Positions 626 through 6,950 of a stretch of DNA of 6,950 bases are shown here, piece by piece. A program made the translations under genes and the position numbers. The stretch covers positions 1-6,950 of the forward strand of contig JAUYMQ010000034.1 of assembly GCA_030698575.1 (NCBI GenBank). Direction: 5' to 3'. The stretch comes from Deltaproteobacteria bacterium (GTDB lineage: Bacteria > JAUYMQ01). Numbering within the stretch: position 1 is the stretch's first letter; each line of letters begins with the position of its first letter. The notes under the pieces are model-generated. The model was given only the letters and a program-made list of their open reading frames with translations, was not told the origin of the DNA and made no database searches.

Positions 626-2602
626 TCAGGAAGTCCGGAGAGAAGCGATGCGATCGATCTCCCCGGCGAGTCGCGACGCGACCCGGTCAGCGGAGTACAC
701 CTCGACACTCTCGCGCCCGCGCGCGGCGACCGCATCGGCCAGGTCGGGGTGCTCGAGGGCCCAGCGGATCCGCTCGGCCAGCGCGTCGGCGTCGCCCTCC
801 TTCACGAGGAGGCCGTTCCAGCCATCGCGAATAACCTCCCCGATGCCGCCCGCGTCCGACGCAATGACGAGGCAACCCGCCGCCAAGCCCTCGAGCACGG
901 TCACGGGGAGCCCCTCGGTGCGGCCGCCGGGCAGGATGCGCGAGGGCACCACCAGAATGCGCGCGCGCGCCAGCGCCGCGCGCTTCGCGTCGCCGTGCAA
1001 GAGGCCGTGAAAAACGACGCGCCCACCGAGCATCCGCGCCTGGATCCGTAACGCGGGCCTCATGGGGCCGGCTCCGGCGACGTGCAGCGTCGCGCCGGAG
1101 ATCTTCTTCATGGCTTCCAGGAGGATATCGACCCCCTTCACCTCGACAAGCCGTCCCATATAAAGGACACGCTTGCCGCGATCGCAGGCCGGCGCTTCGA
1201 TCCCGTTGATTTCAACGCCCATGGGGATCACCGGCACGTCCCGTGGCGCCAGCCGCAAATCCTGCGATGCGGCGGCGGTGAGCAGTTCGTCGCGAAGCGC
1301 CGCGCTCACGCAGACGAGGCCGTCGCATCGGGTGAGTATCGCCCGTAGCAGCCGCGCGCCGGCATCGAAGGGCCCGCGGTCGCGGAGCGCGGAAAAACCG
1401 CCGCCATGCTCAATCAGGAGATGGGGCTTTCCGGTGAACGCGCGGGCTGCCGCGCCCGCGGCGCCGCCAGGCACGAGCCAGTTCGAAACGATCACATCGG
1501 CCCGCCGCGCCGCCCAGGCCGCCCGCAGCGCGAAAACCAGAAGAAAGGGAACGAGAAACACGCGCGCCAGCGGCGACGCCAGATTCTCTTCGATACCGTC
1601 ACCATAAGCCACACGGTGCCATCGCGCGTGCGGCGCGTAGCCGAAGCGCACTATCTCCAGCTTCCCGTTCACATCGTGTTCACGGCGGGGCGCCTCTCCA
1701 TCCCAGGGTGCAAGAACGGTCACCGGACCTCGCGCCGCCCACCGCCTTGCCAGCGCGCGCACGAAGTGTCCCGCGTGATCATCCTCACGGCGCGGGTAGC
1801 TGGAGGTCAGCACCAGCAGGCGGGGCGTCGTGACAATGCGCTTGCCATCCGAGAGCGGCTGCGCCCGCGCGCGCTTCCACTCCCCGCGCCCGAGGACGCG
1901 CCGCACTATGCCCGCGGCAAGCATCCAGCCGAGGCGGGGGATGACCCGGGGAATCGCGAGGCCGGAGGCGTCCGGGCCGTCGTGATAGATCGGCCGCACG
2001 CAAACGTCGCTCACCCGGAGACCCAGGGCCGCAGCTTTGATAAGAAGGTCGTTCGGAAAACCGTAGCGGGGATAGAGAGCGCCGAGCGGCAGCCGGAGGA
2101 GCGCTTCCCGCGAGATCGCGGTATAGCCGCACTGGCTATCGGCGATCGAAAGCCCTGTGGCGAGCCGCGTCGCGAGGGTGAGAATGGCGTTGCCGAAGAG
2201 CCGGACGGAGGGCATGACGTCCATCACGTCCGGGTGCGAGAGGCGATCGCCCTTCGCGTAGTCGGCCCGCCCCTCGATGAGCGGGTCGAGCAGCGCCGGG
2301 AGGTCGGCCGGATCCATCTGCGCATCGCCGGCCATGACGGCGACGATGTCGGCGCCCGCTTCGAGGGCCCGGCGGTAGCCGCTGACAATGGCGGCGCCCA
2401 CCCCGCCGTTCGATTCGCGCCGCAGGATCTCGGCGCGCCCCACCGCAGGCACGGCGTTGCGCCCGGCCGTGCCGTCCGTGCTTCCGTCGTCGACCACGAT
2501 TACCCGATCGACGAACGCCGGCGTGGTCTCGACAACGTCGGCAACCCGGCGGCTCTCATTGTGGGCCGGAACAACAACGGCTATCTGCTTGCCTCGATAC
2601 AC
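626..2602 (-). CDS. Bifunctional GT2-GT4 fusion glycosyltransferase
   Basis: A 658-residue protein (GTG start at 2602) made of two complete glycosyltransferase modules. Residues 1 to about 240 are a GT2 fold of the dolichyl-phosphate-mannose-synthase/DPM1-like group: VVPAHNE (10-16), DDGSTDG (39-45), the acidic metal/donor site GDAQMDP (92-98), DSQCGY (155-160) and FPNDLL (182-187). No C-terminal membrane anchor follows; a basic linker (about 240-260) leads into a GT4 module from about 261 to 655. There the first Rossmann domain begins LLVLTSSYP (262-270) and includes NWLVPGG (374-380) and EHGGG (398-402). The donor domain has YMGRLVEVKG (481-490), AGAGP (509-513) and the EX7E pair E563/E571. 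The GT2 half resembles polyprenyl-phosphate glycosyltransferases and the GT4 half resembles retaining glycan chain extenders, so sequential action on one surface glycan is plausible but inferred. An ATG at 2623 would add seven residues; GTG at 2602 is preferred because it gives the family-typical MYRGK start and has AAGGAA eight bases upstream. Confidence 0.88.
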   Translation of the reverse strand: MYRGKQIAVVVPAHNESRRVADVVETTPAFVDRVIVVDDGSTDGTAGRNAVPAVGRAEILRRESNGGVGAAIVSGYRRALEAGADIVAVMAGDAQMDPADLPALLDPLIEGRADYAKGDRLSHPDVMDVMPSVRLFGNAILTLATRLATGLSIADSQCGYTAISREALLRLPLGALYPRYGFPNDLLIKAAALGLRVSDVCVRPIYHDGPDASGLAIPRVIPRLGWMLAAGIVRRVLGRGEWKRARAQPLSDGKRIVTTPRLLVLTSSYPRREDDHAGHFVRALARRWAARGPVTVLAPWDGEAPRREHDVNGKLEIVRFGYAPHARWHRVAYGDGIEENLASPLARVFLVPFLLVFALRAAWAARRADVIVSNWLVPGGAAGAAARAFTGKPHLLIEHGGGFSALRDRGPFDAGARLLRAILTRCDGLVCVSAALRDELLTAAASQDLRLAPRDVPVIPMGVEINGIEAPACDRGKRVLYMGRLVEVKGVDILLEAMKKISGATLHVAGAGPMRPALRIQARMLGGRVVFHGLLHGDAKRAALARARILVVPSRILPGGRTEGLPVTVLEGLAAGCLVIASDAGGIGEVIRDGWNGLLVKEGDADALAERIRWALEHPDLADAVAARGRESVEVYSADRVASRLAGEIDRIASLRTS

Positions 2603-2610
2603 GTGCGCGC

Positions 2611-2616
2611 TTCCTT
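2611..2616 (-). promoter_or_regulatory. Ribosome binding site deciding the GTG start of the fusion glycosyltransferase
   Basis: On the minus strand AAGGAA lies 8 bases before GTG at 2602. The alternative ATG at 2623 is preceded by a pyrimidine-rich run (CTCTCCCCGGA) without a Shine-Dalgarno match. The site therefore favours the shorter protein. Confidence 0.6.
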
Positions 2617-2755
2617 GTCTCATTCCGGGGAGAGTGGGCTCGACGGGGTCCGCGCCTGGAACCCGACCGCTTCCGGGCCGCGAAACCCGGACGGCGAGAG
2701 GGCGCTTTTCTTCATCGTTCGCTGAAATGGGAGGGGAAACGGGGGAAGAGGACGA

Positions 2756-3132: not shown

Positions 3133-3140
3133 ACGTGACG

Positions 3141-4355
3141 ATGGCCGAGAAGCAGATCCCCATCGGCAAGGTGCCGGGCGAAGTGGGTGCGCTGCCCGAG
3201 TCGATGAAGGCCTGGGTAATCCGCGAGGAGCGCCACGGCGAACCGTTGAAGGCGTTCCAGCTCGAGGACATGCCCATTCCCGAGATCGGCGCGACCGAGG
3301 TCCTGGTTCTCGTCATGGCCGCGGGGGTCAACTACAACAACGTGTGGGCCGCGCTCGGCACCCCCGTCACAGTCTCGCAGCTGCACAAGGGCATTGATCA
3401 CCACATCGGCGGCTCCGATGCTTCCGGCATCGTGTGGAAGGTGGGCTCCGAGGTGAAGTACTGGAAGCCGGGCGACGAGGTGGTGATCCACTGCAACCAG
3501 TCCTGCGGCCAGTGTCCTGAGTGCAACGGGCTCGACCCCCTCGCCTGCGCCCAGCAGAAAATCTGGGGTTATGAGACGAGTTGGGGAAGCTTCGCCCAGT
3601 TCACCAAGGTGCAGGCACAGCAACTCCTTCCCAAGCCCAAGCACCTCACCTGGGAAGAAGCCGCCTCCTACGCGCTCGTCTATCTCACCGCCTACCGGAT
3701 GCTCGTGGATCAGTGCCGGCTCAAGGCCGGTGACAACGTGATGGTGTGGGGAGCGGCCGGCGGCCTCGGAGGGTTCGCCGTCCAGATCTGCAGGCTATTC
3801 GGCGCCAACGCGGTCGGCATCGTCTCGAGCGAGGAGAAGAAGAAGCTCGTGATGCAGCTGGGCGGCGTGGGCGCAATCAACCGGAAGGACTATGACTTCG
3901 CCCGTCGCGACAACGAAACGCCCGATCAGATCAAGAACCGCGCCAAGGAAACACGGCGGCTGGGTAAGGCGCTCCGGGAGTTCTGGAACGGCCGCGACGC
4001 CGACATCGTGTTCGAGCACGTGGGGCAGCAGACCTTCCCGGCCAGCGTCATTCTGGCCAAGACCTTCGGCAAGATCGTGATCTGCGGCGCGACGTCGGGA
4101 TTCAATCTCGATTTCGACGTGCGCTACCTGTGGATGCGCCAGAAGCAGATCATCGGCTCCCACTTCTGCAACGCCTATGAGGCGAACCGCGCCAACCAGC
4201 TCATCGTCGAGAAGAAGATCGAGCCGGTGCTCGGCAAGGTGTTCCCCTGGGAGGGCTGCGCCGAGGCGCACCAGGTGATGCACGAGAACAGGCACTCCGG
4301 AAACATGGTGATCCTCGTCCAGGCGGAAAAAGAGGGGATGGGGAAAACCGGGTAG
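3141..4355 (+). CDS. ccr: Crotonyl-CoA carboxylase/reductase
   Basis: A 404-residue cytosolic medium-chain dehydrogenase/reductase. The family reductively carboxylates crotonyl-CoA with NADPH and CO2 to ethylmalonyl-CoA, the committing step of the ethylmalonyl-CoA pathway. Visible are NYNNVW (64-69), GSDASGIVW (91-99), IWGYETSWGSFAQF (141-154), the nucleotide-binding turn GAAGGLG (204-210), FEHVG (291-295), and YLWMRQKQIIGSHF (329-342). Residues matching the family's CO2-binding set (an Asn in NYN, Glu145, His341) are kept, so carboxylation rather than plain reduction is expected. The odd part is residues 118-136: four Cys at 122, 125, 128 and 136 have the spacing of the structural zinc lobe of alcohol dehydrogenases, which the Ccr sequences I recall lack. 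Length is slightly below the usual 420-450. The start is set by the AAGGAGG site. First gene of the plus-strand cluster; another acrylyl/enoyl-CoA reductase is possible but less likely. Confidence 0.88.
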   Translation: MAEKQIPIGKVPGEVGALPESMKAWVIREERHGEPLKAFQLEDMPIPEIGATEVLVLVMAAGVNYNNVWAALGTPVTVSQLHKGIDHHIGGSDASGIVWKVGSEVKYWKPGDEVVIHCNQSCGQCPECNGLDPLACAQQKIWGYETSWGSFAQFTKVQAQQLLPKPKHLTWEEAASYALVYLTAYRMLVDQCRLKAGDNVMVWGAAGGLGGFAVQICRLFGANAVGIVSSEEKKKLVMQLGGVGAINRKDYDFARRDNETPDQIKNRAKETRRLGKALREFWNGRDADIVFEHVGQQTFPASVILAKTFGKIVICGATSGFNLDFDVRYLWMRQKQIIGSHFCNAYEANRANQLIVEKKIEPVLGKVFPWEGCAEAHQVMHENRHSGNMVILVQAEKEGMGKTG

Positions 4356-4543
4356 CCGTCGAGTCAGATCTGAATGGAAACTCCCGCCCGGGCGCGCGCC
4401 GCCAGGGATTCTTCCCGCTCATAATTGACGCGCCGCGTTTTCCGGGGCATCTTCCGCCTCCGGCCGGAAATCGTAAGGCATGCCGCCGGGCAGCTGGCGG
4501 CGCCGGGTCCGGGCTTCGAGGCCGCGCTTCATAAGGAGCGTTC
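4356..4543 (+). other. Spacer between ccr and the hydratase genes, with palindromes and a weak promoter candidate
   Basis: No gene is seen in this spacer. It contains perfect 10-bp palindromes TCAGATCTGA (4364-4373), CGCCCGGGCG (4385-4394) and TCCGGCCGGA (4459-4468), plus a potential hairpin pairing GCCGCC (4482-4487) with GGCGGC (4496-4501). None is followed by a T-run, so no intrinsic terminator is evident. TTGACG (4425-4430) and CATCTT (4448-4453), 17 bases apart, form a weak promoter-like pair. The downstream genes may therefore be transcribed both from ccr and from an internal start. Confidence 0.35.
4533..4538 (+). promoter_or_regulatory. Ribosome binding site of the first MaoC gene
   Basis: AAGGAG lies 5 bases before ATG at 4544 and fixes that start. 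The resulting N-terminus places the conserved FFEDFEVG segment at residues 11-18, as usual for the family. Confidence 0.8.
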
Positions 4544-5056
4544 ATGGCTGTGCACAGGGTCGTTCGTGGCAACTTCTTCGAGGATTTCGAGGTCGGCCAC
4601 GTGTTCAAGCATCACTGGGGCCGCACCATCAACGAGGGGGACAATTCCCTCTTCTCCACCGTCACGCTCAACTATCTCCCCGCGGCGCTCAACAAGGAGT
4701 ACGCGCAGAGCCTCGGCTACGCCGGATGCATCATTCATCCCCTGCTGGTGATGAACGTGGTCTTCGGCCTTTCCGTCGAGGATCTCTCGGAGCAGGCCAT
4801 CGCGCAGCTCGGCTACTTTGACATGAAGTTCGGCGTAACGGTCTATCCGGGCGACACGCTCATCAGCGAATCGACCGTGATGGAAAAGCGCGAGAGCAAG
4901 AGCCGACCGGCCTTCGGCATCGTTCGATTCAGGACGGTCGGGCGCAACCAAAAAGGCGAAGAGGTGCTTTCCTACGAGCGCCCCGTGCTGATCAAGAAAC
5001 GGAGCCACTACGGCCCCGAAGCGATGGCAGCGAAGGCGAAGGAGGGAAAATCGTGA
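4544..5056 (+). CDS. MaoC-like hot-dog protein, N-terminal half of a split mesaconyl-CoA hydratase
   Basis: A 170-residue single hot-dog domain protein. NFFEDFEVGHVFKHHWGRTI (10-29), EGDNSLFSTVTLN (31-43), GYAGCIIHPLLVMNVVFGLS (58-77), YPGDTLISESTV (101-112) and the closing RFRTVGRNQKGEEVLSYERP (128-147) follow the order of the N-terminal domain of two-domain mesaconyl-CoA hydratases (about 340 residues in the family as I recall it). At the position of the Asp/Asn-x4-His pair used for catalysis in the hydratase-2 group it has Asn43 but Ala48, so it probably lacks its own active site and serves as the structural or CoA-binding partner. It ends in a charged tail (EAMAAKAKEGKS, 159-170) where an interdomain linker would be. 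The stop overlaps the next start by GTGA, indicating coupled, probably stoichiometric synthesis. Alternatives are an independent MaoC dehydratase or an itaconyl-CoA-type hydratase subunit. Confidence 0.75.
   Translation: MAVHRVVRGNFFEDFEVGHVFKHHWGRTINEGDNSLFSTVTLNYLPAALNKEYAQSLGYAGCIIHPLLVMNVVFGLSVEDLSEQAIAQLGYFDMKFGVTVYPGDTLISESTVMEKRESKSRPAFGIVRFRTVGRNQKGEEVLSYERPVLIKKRSHYGPEAMAAKAKEGKS
5039..5045 (+). promoter_or_regulatory. Ribosome binding site of the second MaoC gene, inside the first
   Basis: AAGGAGG lies within the last codons of the preceding gene, 7 bases before GTG at 5053. A near-perfect site plus a GTGA stop/start overlap shows that the second hydratase half is translated as its own polypeptide, rather than the pair being one gene broken by a recent frameshift. 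Confidence 0.8.
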
Positions 5057-5538
5057 GCCTCACCGATCCCGGTTCCTACTACGAGAACTTCACGGTGGGC
5101 GATATCTACGAGCACTCCCGCGGGAAGACCATCAGCGAAACCGAGCACCAGTGGCTGACGCTGCTCGTGATGAACACCGCCCAGGTGCACTTCAACCACG
5201 CCATGGTTTCGGCCGATCCCGACACCTACATCGGCGGCAAGCGGATCGTCTACGGCGGCATCGTGCTTTCGACGGTGCTGGGCCTCACCAGCGAGGACTG
5301 CGCCGAGAACTCGATTACCGAGATCGGCATGAACAACGGCAAGCATCCGAATCCGGTCTTCGCGGGCGACACGCTCTTCGCTTCATCGGAGGTGCTCGAG
5401 ACGCGCGACGCCCCGGACCGGGACGATGCAGGCATCGTGAAGTTCAAGCACATGGGAAAGAATCAGGACGGCAAGGTGGTGGTGGAGATCGAGCGCGAGG
5501 TCCTGATCAAGAAGCAGGCCAAATGGGCAAGGAATTGA
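5053..5538 (+). CDS. MaoC-like hot-dog protein, catalytic C-terminal half of a split mesaconyl-CoA hydratase
   Basis: A 161-residue hot-dog protein starting at GTG 5053. SYYENFTVGDIYEHSRGKTI (8-27), the active-site-like segment NTAQVHFN (41-48), RIVYGGIVLSTVLGL (64-78), NGKHPNPVFAGDTLFASSEV (95-114) and PDRDDAGIVKFKHMGKNQDG (121-140) parallel the C-terminal domain of mesaconyl-CoA hydratase. Asn41 and His46 fit the Asp/Asn-x4-His arrangement of hydratase-2 enzymes, so this subunit probably carries the reaction: reversible hydration of mesaconyl-C1-CoA to beta-methylmalyl-CoA in the cytosol. It likely forms a heteromer with the preceding protein, which lacks the His. It ends 13 bases before the lyase gene that uses its product. 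Exact substrate (mesaconyl-, itaconyl- or another branched enoyl-CoA) is inferred from context with ccr and the lyase. Confidence 0.78.
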   Translation: MSLTDPGSYYENFTVGDIYEHSRGKTISETEHQWLTLLVMNTAQVHFNHAMVSADPDTYIGGKRIVYGGIVLSTVLGLTSEDCAENSITEIGMNNGKHPNPVFAGDTLFASSEVLETRDAPDRDDAGIVKFKHMGKNQDGKVVVEIEREVLIKKQAKWARN

Positions 5539-5551
5539 TGGAGGCCAGACG

Positions 5552-6580
5552 ATGTTCTTACTTTCGAAGCTGAACCGTTTCGTCATTCCCAGGACCGAGC
5601 TGACCTACCCCTGTCACCTCATGAAGCTCCACCAGAACGCCGCGAAGGCGCAGGTGGACCTCGTAATGGCCGACTTCGAGGACGCCTGCCCCTACGAGTA
5701 CAAGGGTGAACCGTCGCGGAAGACGATGGTCGAGGCGCTGAACACCATCGACTTCGGGAATCGCGCCATCACCATCCGGCCCAATAACATCCACTCCAAG
5801 TTCTTCCTCGGTGACATCGAGGCCATCATGATGGGCGCCGTTGATCGCTTCCACGGCATCGTCCTGCCCAAGACCAACACGCCCGAGGACATTGTCCATC
5901 TCTCGCGGCTCCTCGACGGTTACGAGAAGCAGGCCGGCTGGACCACAACGGTCCAGATCGAGGCGCTCATCGAGACCCCGCTGGCGATCGTCAACGGCTA
6001 CAAGATCGCCACGGCCAGCGAGCGCATGGCGGGCCTCATCTTCGGCATCGCCGATTTCTCGGCCGCCATGGGCGTGCGCGAGATGGTCATCGACCAGAAC
6101 AAGAACTTCCACTACGCCAAGCAGGCCACCGTGGTTGCGGCCAAGGCGGCCGGGCTCCACGCCGTCGACAACGCCTGGCTGAAGCTGATTCGAAAGGACA
6201 CGACGCCCGAGGAGGCGAAGGTGATCGAGGCCGGGCTGCGTGACAAGAACGTCGGCGCCGCGAACATGGGCTTCGACGGCACCTGGGTCATCCATCCGCA
6301 GCAGGCCGAGATCGCGAACGCGTGCTACACGCCCGATTCCGAAGCGGTGCGGCTCGCAAAGCGCGCCGTCGAGTACTACCACTCGGTTGGCGGCGGGGCC
6401 GTGGCCGATCCCGAGACGGGCTCGTTCTATGACGAGGCCACGATCAAGAACAACCTGATGGATCTCGCCAAGGGCGTTCAGGCCGGCACGGTCGAGGCCG
6501 ATTACCTCGCCCACTGGGCCGCCAAGTCGAAGGAAGTGACCGGCTACGACATCCTCCAGGTGATGAAGAGGGTGATGTGA
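5552..6580 (+). CDS. mcl: L-malyl-CoA / beta-methylmalyl-CoA lyase (CitE/HpcH superfamily)
   Basis: A 342-residue TIM-barrel CoA-ester lyase, within the usual size of malyl-CoA lyases (about 320-350) and longer than the roughly 270-300-residue CitE-type enzymes. Visible are ADFEDACP (40-47), RPN (76-78, Arg76 in the carboxylate/CoA-binding position), LPKTNTPEDI (105-114), the metal ligand Glu141 in EALIETP (137-143), the second ligand Asp168 in FGIADFSA (164-171), and GTWVIHPQQAEIANACYTPD (243-262). A C-terminal lid follows with Asp294 in SFYDEATIKN (291-300), matching the catalytic Asp that malyl-CoA lyases donate across the subunit interface. It would cleave beta-methylmalyl-CoA to propionyl-CoA plus glyoxylate and malyl-CoA to acetyl-CoA plus glyoxylate, reversibly, with Mg2+. 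GGAGG at 5540-5544, 7 bases before ATG, fixes the start. (S)-citramalyl-CoA lyase is the main alternative. Confidence 0.82.
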   Translation: MFLLSKLNRFVIPRTELTYPCHLMKLHQNAAKAQVDLVMADFEDACPYEYKGEPSRKTMVEALNTIDFGNRAITIRPNNIHSKFFLGDIEAIMMGAVDRFHGIVLPKTNTPEDIVHLSRLLDGYEKQAGWTTTVQIEALIETPLAIVNGYKIATASERMAGLIFGIADFSAAMGVREMVIDQNKNFHYAKQATVVAAKAAGLHAVDNAWLKLIRKDTTPEEAKVIEAGLRDKNVGAANMGFDGTWVIHPQQAEIANACYTPDSEAVRLAKRAVEYYHSVGGGAVADPETGSFYDEATIKNNLMDLAKGVQAGTVEADYLAHWAAKSKEVTGYDILQVMKRVM

Positions 6581-6950
6581 GGTTCTACGAGTTCGAAGCC
6601 AAGAAGCTTTTTGCCAGGCACGGCGTTCCGCTCCCGAAGAACGGCACGGCGAACACGCCTGACGAAGCGAAGCAGCTGGCGGCCGAGATAGGCTGCCCCG
6701 TGGTGCTCAAGTCGCAGGTGCTCTCCGGCGGTCGCATGAAGGCCGGCGGCGTGAAGTTCGCCGACACTCCCGACGAGGCCGCGAAGCACGCCGAGGCGAT
6801 ACTCAAGCTCGAGATCAAGGGCCTCAAGCCCGTCTGCGTTCTCGTCGAGCAGAAGGCCCCCGTCAAGAAGGAGTACTACGCGGGCGTCACCTGGGACGGC
6901 GTGGCCAAGAAGCCCGTCATCATCTTCAGCGACATGGGCGGCATCGACAT
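6577..6950 (+). CDS. sucC: ATP-grasp acyl-CoA ligase beta subunit (succinate/malate-CoA ligase-like), 3' end missing
   Basis: The frame opens at GTG 6577, overlapping the lyase stop by GTGA, and continues past the right edge; 124 complete residues are visible. The N-terminus RFYEFEAKKLFARHGVPLPK (2-21) is typical of SucC-type beta subunits, followed by PVVLKSQVLSGGRMKAGGVK (41-60), the ATP-grasp nucleotide loop, and the VLVEQK...KEYYAGVTWD strands (88-107). The usual GGRGKAGG reads GGRMKAGG, with Met54 in place of a Gly that is nearly constant in SucC sequences I recall. Such subunits pair with an alpha subunit (SucD/MtkB), expected just beyond the window, to form acyl-CoA from a dicarboxylate, CoA and ATP or GTP. 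Coupling to the malyl-CoA lyase makes malate-CoA ligase (malate thiokinase, MtkA) a good guess, but the specificity residues are not visible. AAGAGGG lies 4 bases before the start. Ordinary succinyl-CoA synthetase or an itaconate/citramalate ligase are alternatives. Confidence 0.82.
   Translation, partial: MRFYEFEAKKLFARHGVPLPKNGTANTPDEAKQLAAEIGCPVVLKSQVLSGGRMKAGGVKFADTPDEAAKHAEAILKLEIKGLKPVCVLVEQKAPVKKEYYAGVTWDGVAKKPVIIFSDMGGID

Follow-up and report, generated by a model that had tools for sequence, protein, structure and literature searches.

Background

Does mesaconyl-CoA hydratase (Mch/MeaC) have to be a single polypeptide? To our knowledge, this carbon-assimilation enzyme is known solely as a single two-domain protein, and the question is raised by two overlapping genes in the window, i.e. 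the whole stretch of 6,950 nucleotides from a Deltaproteobacteria bacterium analysed here, whose products match, in order, the two halves of that enzyme. Here, we propose that these products, MaoC-A and MaoC-B, contribute one subunit each to a heteromeric hydratase that acts on mesaconyl-C1-CoA in the ethylmalonyl-CoA pathway, and for this whole explanation, including a pre-fusion ancestry of the pair, we estimate a probability of roughly 0.75 from sequence comparisons. The chemistry and the pathway are already known, while the two-gene architecture, and with it any split or heteromeric Mch, was not found described in the literature searched, which was mostly outside the subscription journals.

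The split form extends beyond one genome and bears on the origin of the fused enzyme. The pair would complete the ethylmalonyl-CoA pathway in genomes in which looking for the familiar two-domain mch gene gives no match. Further, it would provide a testable example of pseudo-heterodimeric hot-dog enzyme evolution, in which duplication was followed by loss of a catalytic residue in one copy and of the pocket in the other, and then by fusion, possibly twice.

Gene organisation and homology

The first gene (4544–5056, forward strand) encodes MaoC-A, a subunit of 170 aa, and the second (5053–5538, forward strand) encodes MaoC-B, of 161 aa; both are MaoC-type hot-dog proteins. The genes share a GTGA stop/start overlap (5053–5056, forward strand), and each has its own Shine-Dalgarno sequence on the same strand, AAGGAG (4533–4538) 5 nt ahead of the ATG of MaoC-A and AAGGAGG (5039–5045), lying within the 3' end of the MaoC-A gene, 7 nt ahead of the GTG of MaoC-B. 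This arrangement suggests that translation of the two genes may be coupled via the GTGA. The coordinates and lengths given in an earlier note on this DNA are thus exact, both the overlap and the separate ribosome sites that it had described are located in the sequence, and its observation of a split pair stands far beyond chance.

Together, the two proteins match both domains of the mesaconyl-CoA hydratase profile PF19315 (353 positions; cut-off 26.5 bits), with MaoC-A aligning to positions 20–169 (102.8 bits, E 2.7e-29) and MaoC-B to positions 223–352 (66.2 bits, E 3.7e-18). The closest solved chains are the fused enzymes of Chloroflexus (4e3e) and Methylorubrum (8hgn), to which the halves are 35–42% identical, MaoC-A corresponding to the first or N-domain (E 4e-34 for 4e3e) and MaoC-B to the second or C-domain (E 9.5e-35), so that the order of the halves proposed earlier is upheld by the profile and by both structures. 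The predicted fold of MaoC-A (AlphaFold, mean pLDDT 72.7) likewise has 4e3e as its top Foldseek match; the model of MaoC-B, built from 7 alignment rows, reached a mean pLDDT of 57 and was left out of the analysis.

The fused enzymes, including that of Rhodobacter, resemble the pair in having two hot-dog domains in the same order, the catalytic Asn/His on the second domain, nearly identical ligand residues and shared pathway neighbours. They differ in being one chain with a bridge of about 43 (43–45) residues between the domains, whereas the window has two genes and no bridge, just 17 residues following the MaoC-A domain and 9 preceding the MaoC-B domain. With its two domains not joined in one bridged chain, the pair is a split variant and not the fused enzyme. 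The haloarchaeal Mch of the methylaspartate cycle also has two domains, of which the C-domain is like MaoC-B and the N-domain is related to one-domain bacterial proteins (PMC5592240), but it is fused, very divergent and found without a Ccr pathway, and the corresponding 2-methylfumaryl-CoA hydratase model NF041625 gave 115 and 66 bits for the two window proteins against an equivalog cut-off of 560.

Division of the active site

In the crystal structure of MeaC (8hgn), malate is contacted by F71, S79, N85 (through its backbone) and R142 of the N-domain and by N226, H231, Y248 and G249 of the C-domain (PMC10164722). Mapped through the alignment, the N-domain columns hold F, S, Q and R in MaoC-A (three of four kept) and the C-domain columns hold N41, H46, Y and G in MaoC-B (four of four), which leaves seven of the eight ligand residues present, divided into F, S and R on one subunit and N, H, Y and G on the other. 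In MaoC-A, the Asn position is occupied by Asn and the column of the catalytic His by Ala, while MaoC-B has Ala in the S79 column and thus lacks the N-domain serine. The alignment therefore bears out the earlier claim that the catalytic Asn-x4-His pair (Asn41/His46) is restricted to MaoC-B. Several fused enzymes likewise lack this pair in their first domain, and in single-domain relatives the catalytic and pocket residues are all found in one chain. As the ligand residues are divided between the proteins, neither subunit alone rebuilds the full site, whereas an A:B assembly can, and the divided roles that had been suggested find support in a partition matching that between the two MeaC domains.

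Based on these residues, the pair very likely must assemble to work. MaoC-A would supply the F71/S79/R142 side, i.e. the facing wall of the acyl pocket, and MaoC-B would contribute Asn41/His46 together with the Tyr-Gly that corresponds to Y248-G249, so that each A:B dimer would form one composite active site and neither protein would be active alone. The enzyme is expected to interconvert mesaconyl-C1-CoA and beta-methylmalyl-CoA, acting between Mcd and the neighbouring Mcl-like lyase.

Two separately encoded hot-dog MaoC subunits are also a feature of ChsH1-ChsH2 and HadAB/HadBC, and in ChsH1-ChsH2 there is one composite site per dimer with one catalytically inert partner (PMC11321319). The window pair shows the same combination of one catalytic and one inert partner at the level of sequence, the His being absent from MaoC-A and present in MaoC-B. 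Close kinship, however, is lacking: these systems act on steroid or mycolic-acid substrates and are distant in sequence, with identities of about 13–18% in the fold match, and of about 13–15% for the ChsH1-ChsH2 type, far below that of 4e3e. Loss of the His in A, and with it the division of labour, is not universal among relatives of the pair, since Acidimicrobiia A halves (L006, L008) keep the N-x4-H motif. In the Acidimicrobiia pairs whose A halves carry it (L006-L011), both subunits might be catalytic, unlike in the window pair.

Pathway context

The first gene of the operon is ccr (3135–4355, forward strand), encoding a crotonyl-CoA carboxylase/reductase of 406 aa from a GTG start, with an alternative ATG at 3141, and its product is a true Ccr (522 bits for TIGR01751 against a cut-off of 378.6). 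Downstream of the pair lies a CitE/Mcl-type C-C lyase (5552–6580, forward strand; PF03328), the best PDB matches of which are the malyl-CoA lyases 5ugr, 4l9y and 4l7z. It keeps the residues with assigned roles in Mcl, namely the Glu/Asp ligands of Mg, the Arg and the Asp (PMC3832036), and is likely a beta-methylmalyl-CoA/malyl-CoA lyase. Despite these active-site residues, the protein falls far short of all NCBIfam equivalog cut-offs (citE, RipC, haloarchaeal Mcl). The last gene (6577–6948, forward strand), which overlaps the lyase gene by GTGA, is the 5' part of a gene for an ATP-grasp succinate/malate-CoA ligase beta subunit (PF08442, TIGR01016, PRK14046), cut by the contig end; this start is nearer to SucC (TIGR01016, 109 bits) than to malate-CoA ligase (PRK14046 MtkA, 64 bits). 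Elsewhere in the window (626–2623, reverse strand), a protein of 665 aa apparently combines two glycosyltransferases, one GT2-like and one GT4-like, in a single polypeptide.

For the remaining pathway genes, we ran targeted searches of the genome, a 4.13-Mb metagenome-assembled genome (MAG) in 653 contigs. It encodes an Ecm mutase that is 58–60% identical to Ecm proteins whose genes, in other genomes, adjoin ccr and a fused mch, and a MeaB-like GTPase gene follows ecm; an epimerase-like gene and an Mcd homologue (47% identity) are also present. The same searches found no true isocitrate lyase, the sole match to that superfamily being partial (62 bits), and no fused or other Mch elsewhere in the genome. 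With the pathway otherwise complete and no other Mch in the genome, the mesaconyl-CoA step has MaoC-A and MaoC-B as its sole candidate. In other genomes (L070, L072), a fused mch occupies the place between ccr/ecm and mcd. These two genomes, from other phyla, have ccr, ecm and mcd in one cluster with a gene for a fused Mch of a second, divergent type (about 386–390 aa). Additionally, a fused Mch-like protein of 353 aa (L069, 6095–7153), 40–44% identical to both window halves, is encoded in a genome that is 84% complete and has no Ccr above the cut-off.

Split pairs in other genomes

The phylum of the window is represented in the genome set by this genome alone. In a second small phylum (family f70), both A and B occur in all five genomes, with A being 57–60% identical to MaoC-A; in the three genomes examined further, the two genes are unlinked, on separate contigs, and a true Ccr (>500 bits) is present. 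In a sample of 386 genomes from across the domain, strong matches to A (>150 bits) and to B coincide in the same four, belonging to two lineages, and no sampled genome has a strong A or a strong B alone.

Other pairs occur in different gene neighbourhoods. The order in Acidimicrobiia is A, acyl-CoA dehydrogenase, B and lyase, while plasmids of Tistrella, Variovorax and Pseudosulfitobacter carry MmgE/PrpD, A, acyl-CoA dehydrogenase, B, CoA transferase and lyase; in Sphingomonas panacis, A and B overlap as in the window, and a plasmid of the haloarchaeal Halomarina has both. In public annotation, the A and B genes of the plasmids are merely called 'MaoC family dehydratase'. Searches of a single Acidimicrobiia genome and of three plasmid records (proteobacterial/haloarchaeal) gave no Ccr above the cut-off, and these Ccr-less split pairs are probably catabolic. 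The plasmid operons L057 (4318–8630), L058 (2930–8626) and L059 (2909–8624), two of the three with an adjacent TRAP transporter, have the MmgE/PrpD-to-lyase gene order given above, their lyase being a CoA ester lyase, and resemble a route of C5/C6 dicarboxylate degradation.

Phylogeny and alternative explanations

In a tree of the halves, A proteins and Mch N-domains form one clade (99/95) and B proteins and C-domains another (100/99), both separate from the single-domain hydratases. The grouping with unrelated MaoC families that would have spoken against the earlier note is thus not seen. A second tree was built from concatenated A|B and N|C sequences, with single-domain enzymes entered twice as outgroup, and here the fused enzymes nest among the split pairs, which are paraphyletic to them. 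The window pair stands next to the fused clade with support of 97/90, or 88/90 once the haloarchaeal enzyme is added.

These data bear on whether the two proteins form one enzyme at all. Were their adjacency accidental, MaoC-A and MaoC-B would be homo-oligomers acting on different substrates, as could be suspected from RipB/Ich, which are single hot-dog MaoC proteins beside CitE-like lyases, work as stand-alone enzymes and are 33–48% identical to MaoC-A over the domain; both subunits also score better on the RipB/Ich model than on that of haloarchaeal Mch. In RipB/Ich, however, a single chain has both the pocket and the catalytic residues, and these proteins are the outgroup in all trees; the window proteins, with their residues divided, reach 132 and 111 bits on the itaconyl-CoA hydratase model NF038241 against an equivalog cut-off of 340. 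Given the missing His in MaoC-A, the missing serine in MaoC-B, the strict co-occurrence of A and B and their grouping with opposite halves of one enzyme, we regard two separate hydratases as very unlikely. A heteromeric hydratase of another C5/C6 dicarboxylyl-CoA, such as mesaconyl-C4-CoA or itaconyl-CoA, is a somewhat better though still improbable explanation. It is what the catabolic clusters probably encode, and the nearest named pairs are located in such clusters with CoA transferase and lyase, from which it follows that A/B enzymes are not limited to mesaconyl-C1-CoA; the replacement of Asn85 by Gln in MaoC-A is a further counterpoint to the proposed function. In contrast, ccr is part of the window operon whereas a CoA transferase is not, the genome holds Ecm and Mcd homologues, and of the MeaC residues F71/S79/R142 are kept in MaoC-A and the Tyr-Gly in MaoC-B. 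Finally, a fused gene broken by an assembly or sequencing frameshift could be imagined in a single MAG of so many contigs, but this is hardly credible, because the bridge is missing, MaoC-B has its own start signals and the genes are truly separate in relatives.

Accepting a heteromeric Mch, it may be either ancestral or derived, and the earlier note had named both options. A recent fission, by which one bacterial gene for a fused Mch became two of unchanged function in the window lineage, draws on the window pair being the split pair nearest to the fused clade and on the AU test, which did not reject its placement within either fused group, I or II (p-AU 0.148 and 0.277). The best trees nevertheless put the pair outside the fused clade, the bridge is absent, and a different phylum carries both genes unlinked, which makes fission an unlikely origin, although one to be taken more seriously than the alternatives above. 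The choice therefore leans towards the pre-fusion option, with the nesting of fused enzymes among split pairs and the unlinked genes of the second phylum on its side, and we favour the split pair as the older, unfused form of the enzyme. In the AU test, the rejection of a single clade of all split pairs was borderline (p-AU 0.074, then 0.036), and a clade of the window and second-phylum pairs was neither supported nor rejected (p-AU 0.247).

With less certainty, separate genes may be the ancestral state, with at least two fusions having produced one-chain enzymes, the bacterial MeaC and the haloarchaeal Mch, and the window pair may be close to the stock from which MeaC was fused. Whether the unnamed, widespread A/B hydratase family is as a whole a living pre-fusion Mch, with at least two independent fusions and the window pair as the closest unfused relative of MeaC, appears to us evenly balanced. 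In the tree, the fused Mch of haloarchaea is nested within the catabolic split pairs (95/93), on a very long branch; this position agrees with the published conclusion that the haloarchaeal and the bacterial Mch are convergent and that most relatives of the haloarchaeal enzyme are one-domain proteins (PMC5592240).
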